From: Halorubrum sp. 2020YC2
GTDB lineage: Archaea > Halobacteriota > Halobacteria > Halobacteriales > Haloferacaceae
Assembly: GCF_018623055.1 (NCBI RefSeq)
Contig: NZ_CP076019.1
Span: 620,001 to 684,000 of the forward strand
Length of the DNA: 64,000 nt
Reading direction: 5' to 3'
Below the pieces are notes generated by a model that had not been told where the DNA came from, made no database searches, and worked only from the letters and a program-made list of their open reading frames with translations. Of the stretch, positions 13,371-63,954 are shown one piece after another (position 1 is the first letter of the stretch; every line of letters starts with the position of its first letter). Position numbers and translations under genes: made by a program.

Positions 13371-13708
13371 ATTATAAATATCGACCCACCAGGTGACACG
13401 TTGCGGTGGCGCGTGCCGGTGAGCGCCGCACCGCGGCGCGAACCGCACGCGCGAGGTCGTCGGGCTTCGGCCGACTGCCAGAGGGGCGTCGCGCCTCGCT
13501 GTCACCGGACGTAGTCCGGCGACGAGGCTGGGGAGGCGTGAGGTGCGGTGCTGTGCGGTGCGGGGCGGGACTCAAAGGGGCAGCCGCCGGCGACACCGCA
13601 GGAAGCGAGCAACGCGAGCGACTGAGGGCACAACGAGCGTGCGCCCGCCTCGCGGCTGGGGCTCTGGCGGTGTTCGCCGCCGATCAGGTGGCAGTTATTT
13701 ATAAATAA
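13371..13708 (+). repeat. Structured dispersed repeat, copy 1 (candidate ncRNA)
   Basis: Fills most of the 560-bp gap between gfcR and the glutaredoxin gene. It runs from an AT box (TTATAAATA, 13372-13380) to a perfect 14-nt palindrome TTATTTATAAATAA (13695-13708). Shared blocks with the other copies: GGTGGCGCGTGCC (13405-13417), CGACGAGGCTGGGGAGG (13520-13536), GGGACTCAAAGGGGCAG (13567-13583) and GGCTGGGGCTCTGGCGG (13654-13670). Hairpins: GCGCGTGC/GCACGCGC (13409-13416 with 13445-13452), CCGGAC/GTCCGG (13505-13519), GGCGGT/GCCGCC (13666-13681). Reading frames across it are low-complexity and unlike real haloarchaeal proteins. Confidence 0.8.
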
Positions 13709-18102: not shown

Positions 18103-18409
18103 TTTATAAGCAAACGAGGCGGTGCGGTGGCGCGTGCCTGCGAGCGGTCGCCATCGGCGGCCGCGAGTCGGCACGCGCGAGGGAGTCGGCCGACCGCAGG
18201 GAGGCCGACGAGGCTGGGGAGGTGTGAGGTGCTGTGCGGTCGCGGGCGGGTGGGACTCAAAGGGGCAGTCGTGAGGACGGCGCAGGTGACGCGAGCACCG
18301 CAGGAGCGAGTGGAACGAGCGACGAGGAGCGCGGCGAGCGTGCGGCGTCCTCACGACTGGGGCTTTGGCGGTGCTCACCGCCGATCGGCCGGCAGCCATT
18401 TGTAAATGA
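18103..18409 (+). repeat. Structured dispersed repeat, copy 2 (candidate ncRNA)
   Basis: Occupies the divergent gap between the CitE-like and MaoC genes. It starts at TTTATAAG (18103-18110) and ends near CATTTGTAAATG (18397-18408). Conserved blocks: GGTGGCGCGTGCCTGCGAGC (18126-18145), GACGAGGCTGGGGAGGTG (18207-18224), GGGACTCAAAGGGGCAG (18252-18268) and ACTGGGGCTTTGGCGG. Pairings: GCGCGTGCC/GGCACGCGC (18130-18138 with 18170-18178), GTCGGCC/GGCCGAC (18185-18191 with 18203-18209), a 13-bp stem CAGTCGTGAGGAC/GTCCTCACGACTG (18266-18278 with 18347-18359), and TTGGCGGT/ACCGCCGA (18365-18384). The remaining 18410-18495 holds nothing recognisable. Confidence 0.8.
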
Positions 18410-18495
18410 CCGACTGCCTTTCGGAGGGAGTCACCACGAACGGCCCTCCAGTAAAGAGCGGTACCGATTTCACGACGCCGGGCGACCGGCGCGTC

Positions 18496-22746: not shown

Positions 22747-24084
22747 TTACTAATATAAAAAGTAAGAAATACATCTGAAGTACGGATGGAGGTACGGCGC
22801 ACCGTGCCAGTCAAGCTCGATATGGCCGACAGCGACGCTGATCTCCTCCATGAAACCATCTCCGAGTTCCTGTGGGCCGCCAACTACGTGGTCGACCACG
22901 CCTGGCAAGGCGAGTATAAAACGACGAGCAAGGCCGAACTCCAACGTGAAACCTACGACGACGTGCGGGCTGAGACGCGTTTACAAGCGAATCTCGTTCA
23001 GAACGCTCGCAACAAGGCCGCCGACGCCGTCCAAAGCGTCGTTGCCCGCTGGAAACAAGGCGACTACGCAGGGAAACCATCCTTTTCCGCCCCCACACTC
23101 GTCTACGACAAACGCTGTGCGACGTTCAACGACGATCACGCGACGCTCTCAACCGTCGAAGGCCGAATCACGGCCGAGTACGTCCTGCCAGACGATAACC
23201 GCGAGACACCCCACTCGGAGTACCTGTTCAACGACGACTACGAAGTGACGGGCGCGGAACTCCACTACCGCGACGGCGAGTTCTACCTTCACGTCCGCAC
23301 TAAGGCCGACGTGGAGTCCGAGACTGCCGACGACGGCAACGCCGAGCACAGCACAGTCCTCGGCGTTGACCTCGGCATCGAAAACATCGCCGTCACTTCA
23401 ACAGGCACGTTCTGGAACGGGGCAGAGCTGAACCACTGGCACCGCGAGTTCGAGAAGCGACGCGGATCGCTCCAACAGCGCGGGACGCGGGCGGCTCACG
23501 AAACCATCCAGTCGGTCGGACGCACAGAGACGGGACGCTACGATCACTTCTTACACACAGTCTCGAAGGAACTCGTCGCAGAAGCCGTCGAACACGACTG
23601 TGACGTGATCGCATTCGAGAACCTGACGGGAATTCGTGAGCGGATGCCGAACGCCAAGAAGTTCCACGCGTGGGCGTTCCAACGTCTGTTCGAGTACGTC
23701 GAGTACAAAGCCGAAGTCGTCGGCATCTCGGTCGAGCAGGTGAGTCCCGCCTACACCTCCCAGCGGTGTTCCAAGTGCGGGTTCACTCACGAAAACAACC
23801 GCCCGACCTCGGACGGACAGGACGTATTCGAGTGCCTGAAGTGCGGATACACTCCCCACGCGGACTACAACGCAGCAAAAAACATCGGTCTGAAGCATCT
23901 CCGCTCGGCGCAAACGTCGTCGAGCGGAGGCGCACCCGTAAACGTGCGCTTGAATCGCGGGACGTTGAACGTGAACGGTGATTACGAGCCTGCCAGCGAT
24001 GGCCAGAACGGGAGTCCACGCGAAAGCCCCACCCTCAACGAAGCGAACGGAAACGCCGTGAGCGAGTAGGGTGGGGTAGTTTAC
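22747..24084 (+). mobile_element. IS1341-type (IS200/IS605 superfamily) element with tnpB only
   Basis: AT-rich DNA after CCGTTAC at 22744-22750 (TAATATAAAAAGTAAG) begins the element and probably supplies the tnpB promoter. The right end is the stem-loop and GTAGTTTAC at 24077-24085. No tnpA is present, so it cannot move by itself and would need a TnpA in trans. No terminal inverted repeats or target duplications are expected for this class. Both borders are my estimate. Confidence 0.65.
22786..24069 (+). CDS. tnpB: TnpB, RNA-guided nuclease of IS1341-type element
   Basis: 427 aa. N-terminal OrfB HTH/wedge part, then RuvC-like core with catalytic acidic residues in [15 protein letters not shown] (about residue 196), [20 protein letters not shown] (about 278) and [15 protein letters not shown] (about 361), and a zinc finger CSKCGF...CLKCGY (about 329-353). 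All key residues are intact, so the protein is probably active. TnpB cuts DNA matching the guide at the 3' end of its omega-RNA and helps keep the transposon at its site. It lies upstream of a ylbF-like gene in opposite orientation. Confidence 0.9.
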
Positions 24085-26385: not shown

Positions 26386-26526
26386 GGCGGCGCGAAAGCG
26401 AGGGATCGCCTTTTCGGCTCCGTTGAAGTCTTCAGAAGGCGAGACGCGTTGCTTCCGTTTCGGTCGGCGCAGAAATAGCGGTGAGCTAGCGGGAGTGGAT
26501 CACTCGAATCGGTCGCTGTGAAACGA

Positions 26527-26560: not shown

Positions 26561-26762
26561 TTATAAAGGTAGACGGTGGCGCGTGCCTGCGAGCGGCCTC
26601 TTGACCGCGAACCGGGACCGAAGGTCCCTCGCTGGAGTCAGTCGCCCGACGCGGAGCGAGGGCGACTGACAGGCCGAGAGCGGAGCTCTCGCTTACAGCC
26701 GGACGGAGTCCGGCGACGAGGCTGGGCTTTGGAGGTGTTCTCCGAAGGATCAGTGGTCATCT
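26561..26762 (+). repeat. Structured dispersed repeat, copy 3 (short form)
   Basis: Starts TTATAAA (26561-26567), then GGTGGCGCGTGCCTGCGAGC (26575-26594). A series of hairpins follows: GGGACC/GGTCCC (26614-26628), an 11-bp stem GTCAGTCGCCC/GGGCGACTGAC (26637-26647 with 26660-26670), GAGAGC/GCTCTC (26676-26690), CCGGAC/GTCCGG (26699-26713). Then CGACGAGGCTGGG joins directly to the 3' hairpin CTTTGGAG/CTCCGAAG (26727-26747). The middle block with GGGACTCAAAGGGGCAG present in copies 1 and 2 is missing, with the junction at a GGCTGGG sequence. Confidence 0.8.
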
Positions 26763-54281: not shown

Positions 54282-54731
54282 TTGCTGAAATCATCTGAAT
54301 CTGACAGAAACGGCGTGCGAGATACAGAGGATTTCAACGGAGCCGCGCAGACCTCCCGATGTCGGTGGGAGGTTGAGTCGTTGTTCCGTGAGTTGAAGCC
54401 GCAGTACGAACTGGATGAGTTCGACACGAGTGGTGAACAAGCGGTAAAGATCCTACTGTACGCAGCGTTGCTATCGCTGCTTGTAAGCCGTGATCTGTTA
54501 GATCTGGTGACCGAGCAAGCGGGTGATGGGATCGTGTTTCCGACAGAGCGCTGGGCGGCGACCTTTCGGTCGCACGCCCATCTCATCCTCTACGAACTCG
54601 GTGAATATCTCGGCTACTCACCGCCGCCACTTCTAGAACGGTTGATCGAAGACGCTCAGAAGGTCCACAGGCAACGACCAATCTTACAAGAGACACTCGC
54701 TACCGCTACACAACCGAGGTGTGAGGCCTAA
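54282..54731 (+). pseudogene. IS4-type transposase, C-terminal fragment
   Basis: From about 54345 the protein reads RCRWEVESLFRELKPQYELD, the end of the Y-(2)-R-(3)-E-(6)-K signature of IS4-family transposases, though the Tyr position is not conserved. LLYAALLSLLVSRDLLDLVT, RWAATFRSHAHLILYELGEY and LGYSPPPLLERLIEDAQKVH follow, with a normal C-terminus. The N-terminal two thirds, with the two catalytic Asp residues, are missing; the first about 20 codons are unrelated. The 54094-54281 gap before it is AT-rich and holds no gene. Confidence 0.7.
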
Positions 54732-57085: not shown

Positions 57086-60000
57086 TCACTCCATCGGAAC
57101 GCGGAGTCGCACGTCGGTTCCGGCCTCCGCCGTACGAACCGAGATGTCGCCGCCGGCCTGCATGGTGATCATCCGAACCATCCACAGCCCGAGCCCGTTT
57201 CCGTGGTTGAGTGGCGTTTCCTCGCCGGTTTCGAGCGCTTCGGCTTCCATCTGCGGGAGTCCCGGTCCGTCGTCGCGCACGCTGACTTCGATCCAGCCGT
57301 CCTCCGGACTGCTGAGTTCGACCTCGACGTCGGCGTCGGGGCCCGTGTTCGCCGCGTTCTCCGCGAGCTCGCGGATCGCGTCGAGCAGCGTCGCCGGAAC
57401 GCGCGTCAGCGCGTCGGACGACACCTCGGTCGAGATCGTCGCGTCCGGGTGCTCGTCGCGAACCGGCGCCACGGCATCTGCGACCAGCGACTCGGGGTCC
57501 GCCCCCGTCGACTGGTCGATCCGCTGAGAGGCCCGGCGAACCTGCTTCACCCGCTCGGTCATCGACTCCCACTTGTCGAGGATGCGGTTGAGAATCGCCA
57601 GATGCTCCGTGCGCGCGTCCCGGTCCGATTCCTCGCACATCAACTCCGCCCAGCCCCGGACCTTCCCGAGGTCGTTCCGCATGTTGTGTCGCATCACCCG
57701 ATGGACGACGTCAAGGTGCTGCCGCTGGCGTTGCTCGGCGGAAACGTCCCGACCAGCGACCACGATCAGCGAGGTGTCGCCGTCCTCGCGCGTCACGGGT
57801 TTCACCGACAGGTCGACCGTCACCAGCCCGTTCGCGCCGCGCATCTTCGTCTCGTACCGGGTGCCCTCGCCGTCCGCGGCCTGCTCGACCGCGGTGCGGA
57901 GGTCGGTCCTCGCCGCGTCCGAGTGCTCCCACAGCGGCGTGTCGCAGAACCGCTCTCCCACGAGCGTTTCCCGCGTCTCCTCGTCGAGCGCAAACGACGT
58001 GTCGTTCAGTTCCACGATCGTGCCGTCCGGGTTCAGCAGGCCCGCGAACTGGAACGTCTGGTTGAACACGCTCTCGAACCGCCGGGCGCGCTCGCGCCTG
58101 TCGGTGACGTCGCGGAGGTACAGCAACATCCCGTCGATGGCGCCGTCGTCCAGCATGTTCTGGCACTGCCCCTCGACGTTGAGCCACTCGCCGTCGCCCG
58201 ACTCAAGCCGAAACTCCAGCTCTCGGTTCGAGTCCGGCCGGTCGACGGCCTCGAAGAACGCCTCCATCGTCTCTTTCCGGTCGGTCGGGTGCGCGTGATC
58301 GAAGAGGTTCCTGCCGACGAGGTCGTCGGGTTCGTGCGCGAGCACGCTCCGGCTCGACCCGCTGGCGTACGTGACCGTCCCGTCCGTGTCGACGACCGTG
58401 ATCACGTCGTCGGACTCCTCGACGAACCGCTCGGTCCGACGCTGCTGGCGGCGTCGCTCGGTCATGTCGTGGACGATCATCGCGTACCCGCGGAACGTCC
58501 CGTCGTCGTGGTCGAGCCGCGCGTACCGGACGTCCGCGTAGAACCGGTCGCCGTCGGCTCCAACGTACCACCCCTCGTGGGCGCTCTGGCCGGCGATCCG
58601 TGCTTGGTCCAGCAGGCGGTCGGGAAGCCCGGTCTCCCGGTCGTCGACCGGATGGAGCCCGGCGATCGACATGCCGACCGCCGCCTGTTCGCCGTATCCG
58701 AAGAGGCTCTCGGCGTTCTCGTTCCACGTCTGGATCCGTCCCTCCTCGTCGACGACGAGGAAGGCGTACTCGTCGATGCTCTCGAGCAGCAGGCGGAACC
58801 GCTCGCGCTCCGCGAACAGCTTCTGCTCGCGTTCGCTGCGTTCGGTGACGTCCTGTTGGATACCGATGTAGTTCCGGACGACCCCCCGGTCGTCGGTGAC
58901 CGGCGTGATCGAGAGCTGACTCCAGTACGGCGTGCCGTCCTTCCGGTAGTTCTGGATGTCGAGCGACACCGGTTCGTCCCGTTCAATCGCCTCGCGTAGC
59001 CGAGCCTTCTGCTCCGGGTCGGTGTCTTCGCCTTGGAGGAATCGCGGGTTCCGACCGAGCGCCTCCTCGGGCGCGTACCCCGTCACCTGCTCGAACCCGT
59101 GGTTAACGTACACCAGCGGGTTGTCGTCTCGCGTCGCGTCAGCGATCTGGATCGCGACGGTGGCCTCGTCCATCGCCCGTTCTTTCAGTTCCAGCTCACG
59201 CTCGCGCTCTTTGCGGTCCGTCTCGTCGCGCACGGTGCAGACGAGGCGGCCGTCCTCGATGATCGTCAGCGAGAGCTCCGCCGGGAACGTCGTCCCGTCG
59301 GGGCGCCGACCGGTGACTGCCCCGCGCCATCTCCCCTCGGCCTCGAGCGCCGGGAAGGCCTCGGCCTCCAGCCGCTCGATCTCGTCGTCGTCGTACAGCC
59401 GCCGCCAGCTCTCCCCGAGGAGCTGCGCTTTGCTCTCGAAGCCGTACATCTCGACGTGCGTCTCATCGATGTACGTGTACTCGTCGTCGTCGAGAACGGC
59501 CACGCCGTCGGCCGCCTGTTCGATGGCCTGCTGGAACAGCTCAAGCTCCTCCCGCTGGCGCTGCCGCTCGCTCTGGTCGCGAGCGGTACAGACGATCCGG
59601 CCGTCGTCGACGGCGGTGAGCGAGATCTCCGTCGGAAATGTCGTCCCGTCGGGGCGCCGGCCGGTGACCGTCCCGCGCCACCGCCCCTCGGCCTCAACGG
59701 CGGGTAAGGCCTCGGCCTCCAGCCGCTCGATCTCGCCGTCATCGTACAGCCGCCGCCAGCTTTTCCCGAGGAGCTGCGCCTCGCTCTCGAAGCCGTACAT
59801 CCCGACGTGCGTTTCGTCGATATACGTGTACTCCCCGTCGTCGAGGATGGCGAACCCGTCGGCGCTCTGCTCGATCGCCCGCTTGATCGACGCCAGCTGT
59901 CGCTCCCGTCGCTTCCGAGACGTGATGTCGCGGAGGACGCCCGCCGTGCCGCGGAACTCGTCGTCGCCGATCAGCGCGATGCGGTTCTCGACGATCTTGT

Positions 60001-61428: not shown

Positions 61429-63954
61429 ATGAACGACGCCGGGGAATTCGCACCGGGCACGTCGGCGTCGGAAGTCCTCAGGCGAGTGACGGACCCGCTG
61501 TTCGCGCTGGACGAACGCGGCGCGCTTTCGTTCGCCAACGAGCCCGCTTCGGACCTGTTCGGGAGCGCGGACGGCGTCCCGCTGGATGAGACCGTCTGGG
61601 AGCAGCTGCGGGACAGATTCGGCGTGGAGGCCGAGGCCCGTCTCCGGGAGGCGTTCGAGGCGAGTGCGACGCGGTCTGTGACCGCGTACGACGGGACCGA
61701 CCGGCAGTGGGTCCGCATGGGGGCGCATCCGTCGGCGACCGGGATGACCGTGACAGTCTCGCCGGCGCCGGACGGCGACCGGACGCGGCTGTCGGAGGCC
61801 GCGGACGCGGCGATAGACGGTATCGCGATCCTCGACGACGAGGAGTACGTGTACATGAACGAGGCTCACGCCGCGATCTTCGATTTCGAGCCCGACGAGC
61901 TGCTCGGGAAGAGCTGGCGGCGGTTGTACGGCGACGCGGAGGAGGAGCGGATCGAACGAGAGGTGTTTCCGCAGCTCGAACGGGAGGGGGAGTGGCGCGG
62001 TGAAACCGAGGGGCGGCGCAGCGATGGGAGCGGCGTCCCCCAAGACGTCTCGCTCTCGCTTCTGGACGACGGCACCCTCGTCTGCGTGAACAAGGACATC
62101 ACCGAGCGGAAGGCCCGCGAACGGGAGCTCGAACAGACCCGCGAGTTCCTTGAGCGCGCGCAGGCGAGCGCCGCCGTCGGCGGCTGGGAGGTCGATCTCA
62201 CGACCGAATCGTTACACTGGACCGACGAGGTGTATCGGATCCACGAGTTGCCCGTCGACGCGCACATCAGTCTACAAGACGGGTTCGACTTCTACCACCC
62301 CGAGGACAGGGGGGTCGTCACCGACGCGTTCGACCGCCTCGTCGACGAGGGGGAGTCGTACGACCTCGAACTCCGGATCGTTACCGCGGCGGACCGGACG
62401 CGGTGGGTCCGGACGGTCGGCGAACCCCGGACCGACGCGAACGGGGACGTGGTCGCGGCGGTCGGCGTGTTTCAGGATATCACCGAGCGAAAGCGGCGCG
62501 ACGAACAGCTCGACCAACTCCGCGAGCGGCTCGACTTGGCGGTCGAGGGCGCTAACCTCGGCGTCTGGGACTGGGACATGACGACCGACGAGGTCGTGTT
62601 CAACGACCGGTGGGCGACGATGCTGGGCCTCTCGCCGGACGCTATCGAACCCAGTCTCGACACGTGGGAAGACCGCGTTAATCCCGATGACATCTCGCGT
62701 GTGAAGGCGGCTCTCAACGCTCACATCGAGGGCGAGACCGAGATGTACGACTGCGATCACCGGATGCGCACGGCCGAGGGCGACTGGCTGTGGATTCGGG
62801 ACGCCGGGAAGGTCGTGGACCGCGACGCCGACGGCCGCCCGACGCGGGCCGTCGGGATCCATCTCGATATCTCCGCACAGAAGGAACAGGAGGCGGCGAT
62901 CGAACGCGCCCGGAACGAGCTCCGGCAGGTAATCGACCTCGTCCCCGACCTGATCTTCGCAAAACGTGACGACGGAACGTACCTCCTCGCCAACGAAGCG
63001 ACCGCGGAGGCGTACGGGCTGACGGTCGCCGAGACGGAGGGGAGCACGGACGCTGAAATCCTCCCGGACAGCGCCCAGTCCACTCACTTCCGGGCCGACG
63101 ACCAGCGGGTGATCGAGTCGGACGAACAGCTCGAGATCCCTGAGGAAGAGTTGACGACGGCCGACGGCGAGACGCGGCTGTTTCAGACGACGAAGATTCC
63201 GTACCGGGTCGCGGGCACGGACGACGACGCCATGTTGGGATACGCTCGGGACATCACGCCGCTCCGTCGATACGAGCACCGTCTCGAACGGCAGCGGGAC
63301 AGTCTCTCCGTCCTCAACAAGATCGTTCGCCATGACATCCGCAACGCGCTCCAAGTCGTCAGCGGAAGCGCGGAACTCCTCGAGCACCGTCTCGATGCCG
63401 AGAACCACCGGCTTCTCGAGGCCATCCGGACGGCCGCCGACGAAGCGGTCGATATCACCGTCTCGGCCAGGGAAGTCACGGAACTCCTGATGGAGGCCGA
63501 CAGGGACCCCGTACCGGTGCCGCTGTCCCCCGTACTCACCCGGCAGATCAGTGCCGTCCGCTCGGGCGATCGGTCGGTCAGCGTGACGAGAGTCGGCAGG
63601 TCCGACGAGAAGCCCGTACTCGCCGACGAGATGCTGAAATCCGTCTTCAGAAACCTGTTACGCAACGCCGCGATTCACAACGACAGCGACAGCCCGTCGA
63701 TCCGCGTCTCGACGGAGGCGCTTCCGGACCGGGTCCGCGTCGCCGTCGCCGACAACGGTCCCGGGGTGCCGGACGAGTTGAAGCGGACCATCTTCAACGA
63801 GGGTACGCAGGGGATCGACAGCGACGGGACGGGGCTCGGATTGTACCTCGTCAAGACGCTCGTCGACCGCTACGGCGGCGCCGTGTGGGTCGAAGACAGC
63901 GAAAGCGGAGGGGCTCGGTTCGTCGTCGAACTGCCGCGTGCCGACGGGGAGTGA
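61429..63954 (+). CDS. Multi-PAS sensor histidine kinase (841 aa)
   Basis: No membrane helices. PAS-like domains at about 10-120, 125-235 (AIDGIAILDDEEYVYMNEAH, LLGKSWRRLYGDAEEERIER; the same module as in the divergent kinase), 240-360 (GGWEVDLTTESLHWTDEVYR), 365-490 (LGVWDWDMTTDEVVFNDRWA) and 500-615. HisKA H635 in IVRHDIRNALQVVSGSAELL; HATPase with NLLRNAAIHN, DNGPGVPDE and GTGLGLYLV. Cytoplasmic sensor; phosphoacceptor partner unknown. The 46 bases after it are the end of the window. Confidence 0.88.
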   Translation: MNDAGEFAPGTSASEVLRRVTDPLFALDERGALSFANEPASDLFGSADGVPLDETVWEQLRDRFGVEAEARLREAFEASATRSVTAYDGTDRQWVRMGAHPSATGMTVTVSPAPDGDRTRLSEAADAAIDGIAILDDEEYVYMNEAHAAIFDFEPDELLGKSWRRLYGDAEEERIEREVFPQLEREGEWRGETEGRRSDGSGVPQDVSLSLLDDGTLVCVNKDITERKARERELEQTREFLERAQASAAVGGWEVDLTTESLHWTDEVYRIHELPVDAHISLQDGFDFYHPEDRGVVTDAFDRLVDEGESYDLELRIVTAADRTRWVRTVGEPRTDANGDVVAAVGVFQDITERKRRDEQLDQLRERLDLAVEGANLGVWDWDMTTDEVVFNDRWATMLGLSPDAIEPSLDTWEDRVNPDDISRVKAALNAHIEGETEMYDCDHRMRTAEGDWLWIRDAGKVVDRDADGRPTRAVGIHLDISAQKEQEAAIERARNELRQVIDLVPDLIFAKRDDGTYLLANEATAEAYGLTVAETEGSTDAEILPDSAQSTHFRADDQRVIESDEQLEIPEEELTTADGETRLFQTTKIPYRVAGTDDDAMLGYARDITPLRRYEHRLERQRDSLSVLNKIVRHDIRNALQVVSGSAELLEHRLDAENHRLLEAIRTAADEAVDITVSAREVTELLMEADRDPVPVPLSPVLTRQISAVRSGDRSVSVTRVGRSDEKPVLADEMLKSVFRNLLRNAAIHNDSDSPSIRVSTEALPDRVRVAVADNGPGVPDELKRTIFNEGTQGIDSDGTGLGLYLVKTLVDRYGGAVWVEDSESGGARFVVELPRADGE

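Follow-up and report, generated by a model that had tools for sequence, protein, structure and literature searches.

The repeat described here, an interspersed element of about 270 nt, is probably a mobile element that lacks autonomy and carries a structured RNA as its payload, the fold of which outlasts the ends of the transposon. Three copies are situated in the window, that is, the whole stretch of 64,000 nucleotides analysed in our study (G000:C1:620001-684000, from a 3.06-Mb Halorubrum genome). This interpretation builds on observed properties of the repeat: its copy number, the covariation of its stems, the asymmetry between its strands, the recent near-identical copies, the terminal repeats and target duplications, and the compensated changes seen in place.

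Copies of the repeat in the window

The repeat comprises three paired modules, P1, P2 and P3 (Table 1). Beyond its outer strands, P1 of copy 2 contains three covarying pairs, a tandem G.A/A.G mismatch and an apical hairpin, and P2 is the module with the greatest variability of the element. In copy 1, P3 is broken, its 5′ side being partly deleted, and copy 3 appears to have lost P3 through a deletion between two GGCTGGG repeats, as suggested by the junction GAGGCTGGGCTTTGGAGG.

Table 1. Features of the repeat and of its surroundings, in window coordinates
Feature	Position	Strand	Description
Copy 1	13408-13684	+	P3 covariance model (R1) 53.7 bits; P1 retained, several hairpins in place of P2
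Copy 1, 3′ hairpin	13666-13671/13676-13681	+	closed by a T.G pair
TATA-like box	18103-18109	+	TTTATAA; 5′ of copy 2
Copy 2	18129-18384	+	only whole copy of the window: P1 to CTTTGG plus fading 3′ stretch
Copy 2, P1	18130-18178	+	GCGCGTGC (18130-18137) pairs with GCACGCGC (18171-18178)
Copy 2, P2 hairpin	18185-18209	+	GTCGGCC/GGCCGAC; read from the sequence
Copy 2, R1 match	18246-18377		124.8 bits (P3 covariance model)
Copy 2, P3	18258-18367	+	CAAAG (18258-18262) pairs with CTTTG (18363-18367)
Copy 2, P3 interior			CAGTCGTG (18266-18273) pairs with CACGACTG (18352-18359); GGG/GGG internal loop; inner helices
Copy 2, 3′ hairpin	18365-18372/18377-18384	+	
Outer terminal repeat remnant	26416-26431	+	GGCTCCGTTGAAGTCT; 5′ of copy 3; three mismatches to GGCTCTGTTGAAATCC
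Inner terminal repeat remnant	26486-26505	+	around GCGGGAGTGGA; 5′ of copy 3
Copy 3	26578-26747	+	P1 and expanded P2; P3 absent
Copy 3, 3′ hairpin	26727-26734/26740-26747	+	register differs from copies 1 and 2

Around the base of P3, copy 2 has G tracts at four places (18216-18219, 18252-18254, 18262-18265 and 18359-18362), and G tracts at this place recur in copies from other genera. The haloarchaeal cytoplasm is rich in K+, and in such an environment these tracts could form a G-quadruplex. Among other sequences of the window, an IS1341-type TnpB gene is located at 22822-24069, between copies 2 and 3, and two direct repeats of 300 bp, 84% identical and 351 bp apart, are found at 59214-59864, with inverted matches at 61816-61970.

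Fold and covariation

With a 308-nt query taken from copy 2, 40 long matches were obtained in the window genome (one per candidate, the best 40 of 333 being scored). From the loci of several searches, two of which scored the best 12 and 13 candidates per genome, at least 114 distinct copies of full length were obtained. Anchor motifs were used to extract them, and these anchors are therefore conserved partly by construction. Two diversity-filtered subsets were aligned: 52 sequences for P3 (alignment A1), comprising all 14 from other genera and 38 of the 44 selected Halorubrum sequences (from 104), and 34 sequences for P1/P2 (alignment A3; 34 of 40 selected, from 99).

P3, with the sequence arms GGGACTCAAAGGGGC ... 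GGGGCTTTGG aligned over the 38 Halorubrum and 14 other-genus copies, was folded by RNAalifold into 33 pairs, 26 of them changed on both sides. In a direct count over 32 pairs, 96.3% of the cells were paired compared with 76.4 ± 0.6 in shuffled alignments, double-sided change was present in 26 of the 32 pairs, doubly changed cells numbered 304 against 79.6, and the covariation score was 0.514 against 0.161, with none of the 500 shuffles matching the pairing, the doubly changed cells or the covariation. Slid controls reached at most 42.7% paired cells in each version, and by an independent stem score 105 of 107 distinct P3 sequences exceeded the best of 107 shuffled ones. For P1/P2 (34 copies), 91.7% of the cells were paired versus 77.8% after shuffling, with 115 doubly changed cells versus 37.7 (0 of 500 shuffles); for P2 alone, the paired share in the same 34 copies was 79.3%. 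Covariation beyond the controls, the property looked for in a structured non-coding RNA, was thus found in P1, P2 and P3.

The tandem mismatch of P1 is G.A in 33 of the 34 copies at its first position and A.G in 34 of 34 at its second. Three strongly covarying pairs lie alongside it, occurring as TCC/GGA, TGC/GCA, GAC/GTC, GGT/ACC, GAT/ATC or CGT/ACG. Covariation also extends over long distances, as CAAAG/CTTTG in Halorubrum is replaced by GAAAG/CTTTC in the 14 other-genus sequences, and the same comparison gives a second case, AAGCACC/GGAGCGC versus AAGGACC/GGACCGC. When Rfam 15 was searched, the only hit of the window at gathering scores was a tRNA, and copy 2 returned two sub-threshold matches at E ≤ 10, none near significance.

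Parts of the fold also occur in multiplied or inverted arrangements. A 3′ module of about 54-57 nt, starting within the 3′ arm of P3, is present as several tandem repeats at each of five loci (L008, L273, L284, L286 and L291), the modules being near-identical within one locus; a CRISPR-like reading of these tandem modules of about 57 nt was rejected, as the supposed spacers recur within a single array. At L322-L331, from two other families, the P3 module is present as inverted dimers (P3 reversed, linker, P3), which thereby have terminal inverted repeats of their own, and at L332 the inner hairpin in one half of such a dimer is turned round against the borders of that half, as if by a stem-loop inversion at the DNA level.

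The 3′ hairpin of the repeat

In the first-pass annotation, a hairpin at the 3′ end of the three window copies was described as occupying the same position with different base pairs, and these differences were taken for compensatory changes indicating selection on the structure of RNA or single-stranded DNA. All three hairpins are present at the positions given in Table 1, but they do not represent one homologous hairpin, because their registers differ: with the C of CTTTGG as column 1, pairing is between columns 5-10 and 15-20 in copies 1 and 2 (register 1) and between columns 1-8 and 14-21 in copy 3 (register 2). In a larger alignment of 105 distinct copies (A2), pairing was preserved in neither register. 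For register 1, 69.6% of the cells were paired versus 68.9 ± 0.6 in shuffled alignments (79 of 500 shuffles as high), with a covariation score of 0.215 versus 0.197 (28 of 500 as high); for register 2, the corresponding shares of paired cells were 62.5% and 62.6% (342 of 500 as high). The third pair of register 1, between columns 7 and 18, is unpaired in 77 of the 105 copies, since the common base there is an A opposite a G.

Conservation declines steadily 3′ of CTTTGG, in the region holding this hairpin, and such fading, together with the lack of covariation, implies that compensatory change is not a property of the hairpin. Its ability to form in all three window copies is outweighed by the absence of covariation in both registers over 105 copies, and it is extremely unlikely that the hairpin itself is selected for pairing. 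Selection on structure can instead be attributed to the whole repeat, where P1, P2 and P3 covary well beyond shuffles and slid controls; there, the maintenance of pairing with changed sequence is stronger than had been proposed, and it is also seen in place at orthologous sites. Hairpins judged on three copies can mislead although the larger repeat is real.

Abundance and distribution

With the covariance model of P3 (R1), 132 matches at E ≤ 1e-5 and 141 at E ≤ 0.01 were found among 150 candidates scored in the window genome. In another Halorubrum, all 150 scored candidates matched at E ≤ 1e-4, and at this threshold six genomes of other genera, belonging to five families, contained 78, 40, 37, 32, 10 and 2 matches (150 candidates scored in each); one further genome of the same family had none among its 150 candidates. 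Matches at E ≤ 1e-5 were present in 58 of 392 genomes of the phylum, all 58 in the order of the window, with the best eight candidates scored per genome, so that misses in this sample are not proof of absence. Within the genus, 45 of the 46 genomes listed matched in blastn (best two candidates per genome).

No match was detected in phage records, and as 25 pattern matches in IMG/VR yielded no copies either (nhmmer, 1e-8), a viral origin was rejected. Among 72,556 plasmid records, only three weak partial matches were present. Regarding the literature, no description of the structured RNA was found in the portions of text covered from PMC7002113, PMC5892119, PMC3956466, PMC3119063, PMC7986276, PMC10927574, PMC10544981 and PMC6011602.

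Persistence in place and exchange between copies

Orthologous sites were compared in 16 of the 17 listed pairs, two of which share L001 and two L100 (L002/L120 was dropped, as no full copy was called in L120). Seven motifs, located by best match, which favours conservation, differed at 45 of 1184 positions (3.8%), the flanks at 10.4%, and the 5′ arm of P3 at 80 of 288 positions (27.8%). Out of 128 cells of outer P3 pairs, 100 were the same and 28 had changed, 20 of the latter on both sides and 5 on one side with pairing retained, while the remaining 3 were broken in one copy. Change is thus more rapid in the stems than in the flanks, and this suggests that copies exchange sequence with each other.

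In agreement with such exchange, none of the 25 pairs of copies whose P2 hairpins are identical has P1 in common, and the similarity of their P3 (0.789) exceeds only slightly the 0.754 of permuted pairs, with 21 of 300 permutations as high. Identical P2 hairpins next to different P1 and near-unrelated P3 modules suggest that many of the apparently compensatory changes result from the exchange of modules and not from stepwise substitution, and compensated change would, at least partly, represent module exchange under a requirement for pairing. A further arrangement was noticed in a related genome, where L156 (in G152), compared with L026 and window position 18450, combines the 5′ flank of one copy with the 3′ flank of a second. 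An inversion through two copies would produce such a junction, and in this respect the repeat marks points of recombination.

Mobility and terminal repeats

Among the Halorubrum loci listed, most lack an element at the site of copy 2 and some have one. The site of copy 1 is occupied in four of six genomes and empty in the other two, and the site of copy 3 has an element in the opposite orientation in one genome. Two loci of the window genome share a 547-bp unit, 97.6% identical, in unrelated surroundings, and two loci in one other genome (L380 and L381) carry copies that are identical by eye. Some copies reside within units of about 0.6 kb with inverted-repeat ends and 8-bp target duplications, and such long units have matches in 33 of 52 Halorubrum genomes (E ≤ 1e-40, best 11 candidates per genome). 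Their ends are nested inverted repeats, the inner approximately TGATCGATAGCGGGAGT and the outer GGCTCTGTTGAAATCC.

In 22 units, selected as long matches, the outer terminal repeats were present at both ends in ten. The 8-bp flanks of these ten units matched at 7, 7, 3, 5, 6, 2, 6, 0, 7 and 7 positions, with a mean of 5.0 versus 2.3 in mismatched controls, and at least six positions matched in 6 of the 10 units (two of these six being orthologous to each other) versus 2 of the 90 controls. Both features by which MITEs were to be recognised, terminal inverted repeats and a target duplication of fixed length, are accordingly found in the selected long units. Most copies, among 64 distinct ones scanned (three loci gave none), have no recognisable terminal repeats while the fold is still present, and the transposon could consequently have become a vehicle late on, or account for only a minority of the spread; we infer, nevertheless, that the repeat spreads mainly by transposition in trans. 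In one unit (L371), the interior is inverted by eye relative to the unit ends.

The same outer terminal repeat, GGCTCTGTTGAAATCC, also bounds elements of 2.47 and 1.2 kb in the window genome (L389, G000:C1:1973900-1976950, and L392, G000:C1:2589000-2592000, respectively), with other genes inside and no recognised transposase, and these ends apparently mobilise cargo of different kinds. One such terminal repeat is found in the window at 54329-54344 on the minus strand, within 54303-54728, where it directly adjoins an ORF that by eye resembles part of an IS4-type transposase.

Relation to known mobile elements

Structured RNAs within mobile elements, with many ORF-less copies per genome, are known from HEARO and from the omega RNAs of IscB and TnpB, and the repeat shares these properties. 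It differs from them in having no Rfam match and no association with TnpB, and the boundary of its conserved RNA does not coincide with the end of the element; in the lack of an Rfam match and of a linked tnpB, membership in the omega RNA/HEARO group was rejected. IStrons likewise have a structured RNA nested in a DNA transposon (PMC4227781), whereas no group I intron or other Rfam family was found for the repeat in the searches of the window and copy 2.

IS6 elements are characterised by 8-bp duplications and by ends that have GG at the tip and contain a CTGTT motif (PMC7986276). The repeat resembles MITEs with IS6-like ends, which are short and ORF-less, produce 8-bp duplications and have terminal inverted repeats that start with GG at the tip and include CTGTTG/AAA (PMC7986276). 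The known IS6 MITEs are 227 and 336 bp long and consist of fused ends (PMC7986276), whereas the repeat has a conserved structured RNA inside, which is found far beyond transposon ends, and is not accompanied by an IS6 transposase. The profile of the latter (PF13610) had no match at E ≤ 1e-10 in any of the 52 Halorubrum genomes, although it may miss haloarchaeal members, and an IS6 family derivative with an IS6-type DDE partner was rejected on this absence.

PATEs and SMRs of Haloquadratum are, like the repeat, transposase-free, numerous and haloarchaeal, with palindromes and with core deletions mediated by repeats (PMC3119063). PATEs are described there as having neither terminal inverted repeats nor target duplications, both of which the repeat units possess, and an identity with PATEs was rejected for this reason; SMRs, of about 110 bp, are likewise described as lacking target duplication (PMC3119063). 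No conserved internal RNA fold of PATEs or SMRs is described in the parts of PMC3119063 covered.

Strand, genomic context and alternative explanations

The consensus fold has an energy of −40.3 kcal/mol on the + strand of the window versus −27.2 on the other strand, and single sequences fold better on the + strand in 52 of 52 cases for P3 and 34 of 34 for P1/P2. G.U outnumbers A.C by 51 to 12 among the cells of P3 (alignment A1), the pairs of which were taken from an RNA folding program that leans toward G.U, and by 18 to 13 in P1/P2. For P2 alone, 87 distinct hairpins examined by an alignment rule neutral to both gave G.T 26 and A.C 23, which speaks against a pure RNA reading of this module. 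As a whole, the strand asymmetry, in both the G.U excess and the folding energy, favours RNA over DNA. A palindromic repeat acting only as DNA, comparable to REP or MITE sequences and shaped by single-stranded or cruciform DNA or by copying from arm to arm, with no role for the RNA, could account for the equal mismatches of P2, the exchange of whole hairpins between copies, and the inverted dimers and flipped inner hairpin of L322-L332. However, it does not predict the G.U excess of P3 or the strand favoured in folding, copying between arms would erase the tandem G.A mismatch kept in 33 of 34 copies, and the unpaired linkers are conserved; we consider this explanation unlikely. It could also be that the repeat is selected by the host as a cis element at gene ends, namely a structure in the RNA, located in 3′ UTRs or in the spacers of convergent genes, that terminates or protects the transcripts and is kept site by site. 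At 51 of the 52 chosen loci of the window genome, those with both neighbours called, no copy was inside a gene, and the flanking genes were convergent in 21 cases, divergent in 8 and tandem in 22; this location, as well as the fold maintained in place at orthologous sites, would suit such a role. Yet both orientations are equally common in tandem spacers (12 versus 10), and the occupancy of sites, and at the site of copy 3 also the orientation, differs among species, making a host function of this type rather improbable.

An origin from IS200/IS605 elements, either as a PATE or as a free-standing TnpB guide RNA (omega RNA), has some precedent, as multi-copy ORF-less structured RNAs exist in the form of HEARO. 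PATEs also provide a transposase-free, numerous, palindrome-bearing element prone to core deletions in a haloarchaeon (PMC3119063). Only 2 of the 13 OrfB_IS605 loci in the genome, however, have an R1 match (E ≤ 1e-10) within about 1.5 kb, with a chance expectation of about 2, and at such a level of linkage the TnpB guide RNA was rejected; moreover, full units have terminal inverted repeats and 8-bp duplications, unlike the definition of PATEs in PMC3119063. Such an origin is therefore highly unlikely.

Proposed mechanism and possible role

The repeat would, according to the mobile-element interpretation, be a haloarchaeal ORF-less element, the conserved payload of which is a structured RNA of about 270 nt read from the + strand of the window and made up of P1, in which the tandem G.A motif lies, P2, the long helix P3, and G-rich linkers that stay single-stranded. 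The units of about 0.6 kb in which some Halorubrum copies lie are presumably mobilised in trans, by a transposase with its gene elsewhere. Once a unit has inserted between genes, its ends would decay and the RNA core would remain, its unpaired motifs staying nearly constant while its stems change with compensation, in part through the exchange of whole hairpins between copies. Selection on the RNA, and not on DNA folding alone, would then keep the fold.

The payload RNA would, in this interpretation, be transcribed. A TATA-like motif is present 10-40 nt 5′ of the anchor in 67 of 105 copies; it is common in Halorubrum copies and by eye not evident at that position in 20 copies from other genera. 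Since this box lies about 20 nt before the 5′ strand of P1, the usual promoter spacing would place the start inside P1, and the box is a doubtful candidate for a promoter of the element itself. In the full units L334, L335 and L363-L382, each side of the RNA has, by eye, two TATA-like boxes spaced about 31 bp apart.

As a first guess, the RNA could be a scaffold for a protein that helps the copies to spread or persist. In a broader sense, it may belong to an undescribed class of functional structured RNAs, an RNP scaffold or a ribozyme, which haloarchaea carry in copy numbers that can exceed 100 per genome, with small transposons as the means of spread, and the copies of which are kept by an activity of the RNA itself, for example RNA-guided or RNP-mediated copying into the empty alleles on the many chromosomes of a polyploid cell; this reading is offered with considerable doubt. 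As sampled, the RNA family is restricted to one order, and it has no Rfam name. If transcribed, it would in our judgement, made without a count against other families, be among the most numerous structured RNA families of any prokaryotic genome, and it raises the question of why more than 100 copies of one RNA fold are kept in a genome while their sequences turn over.
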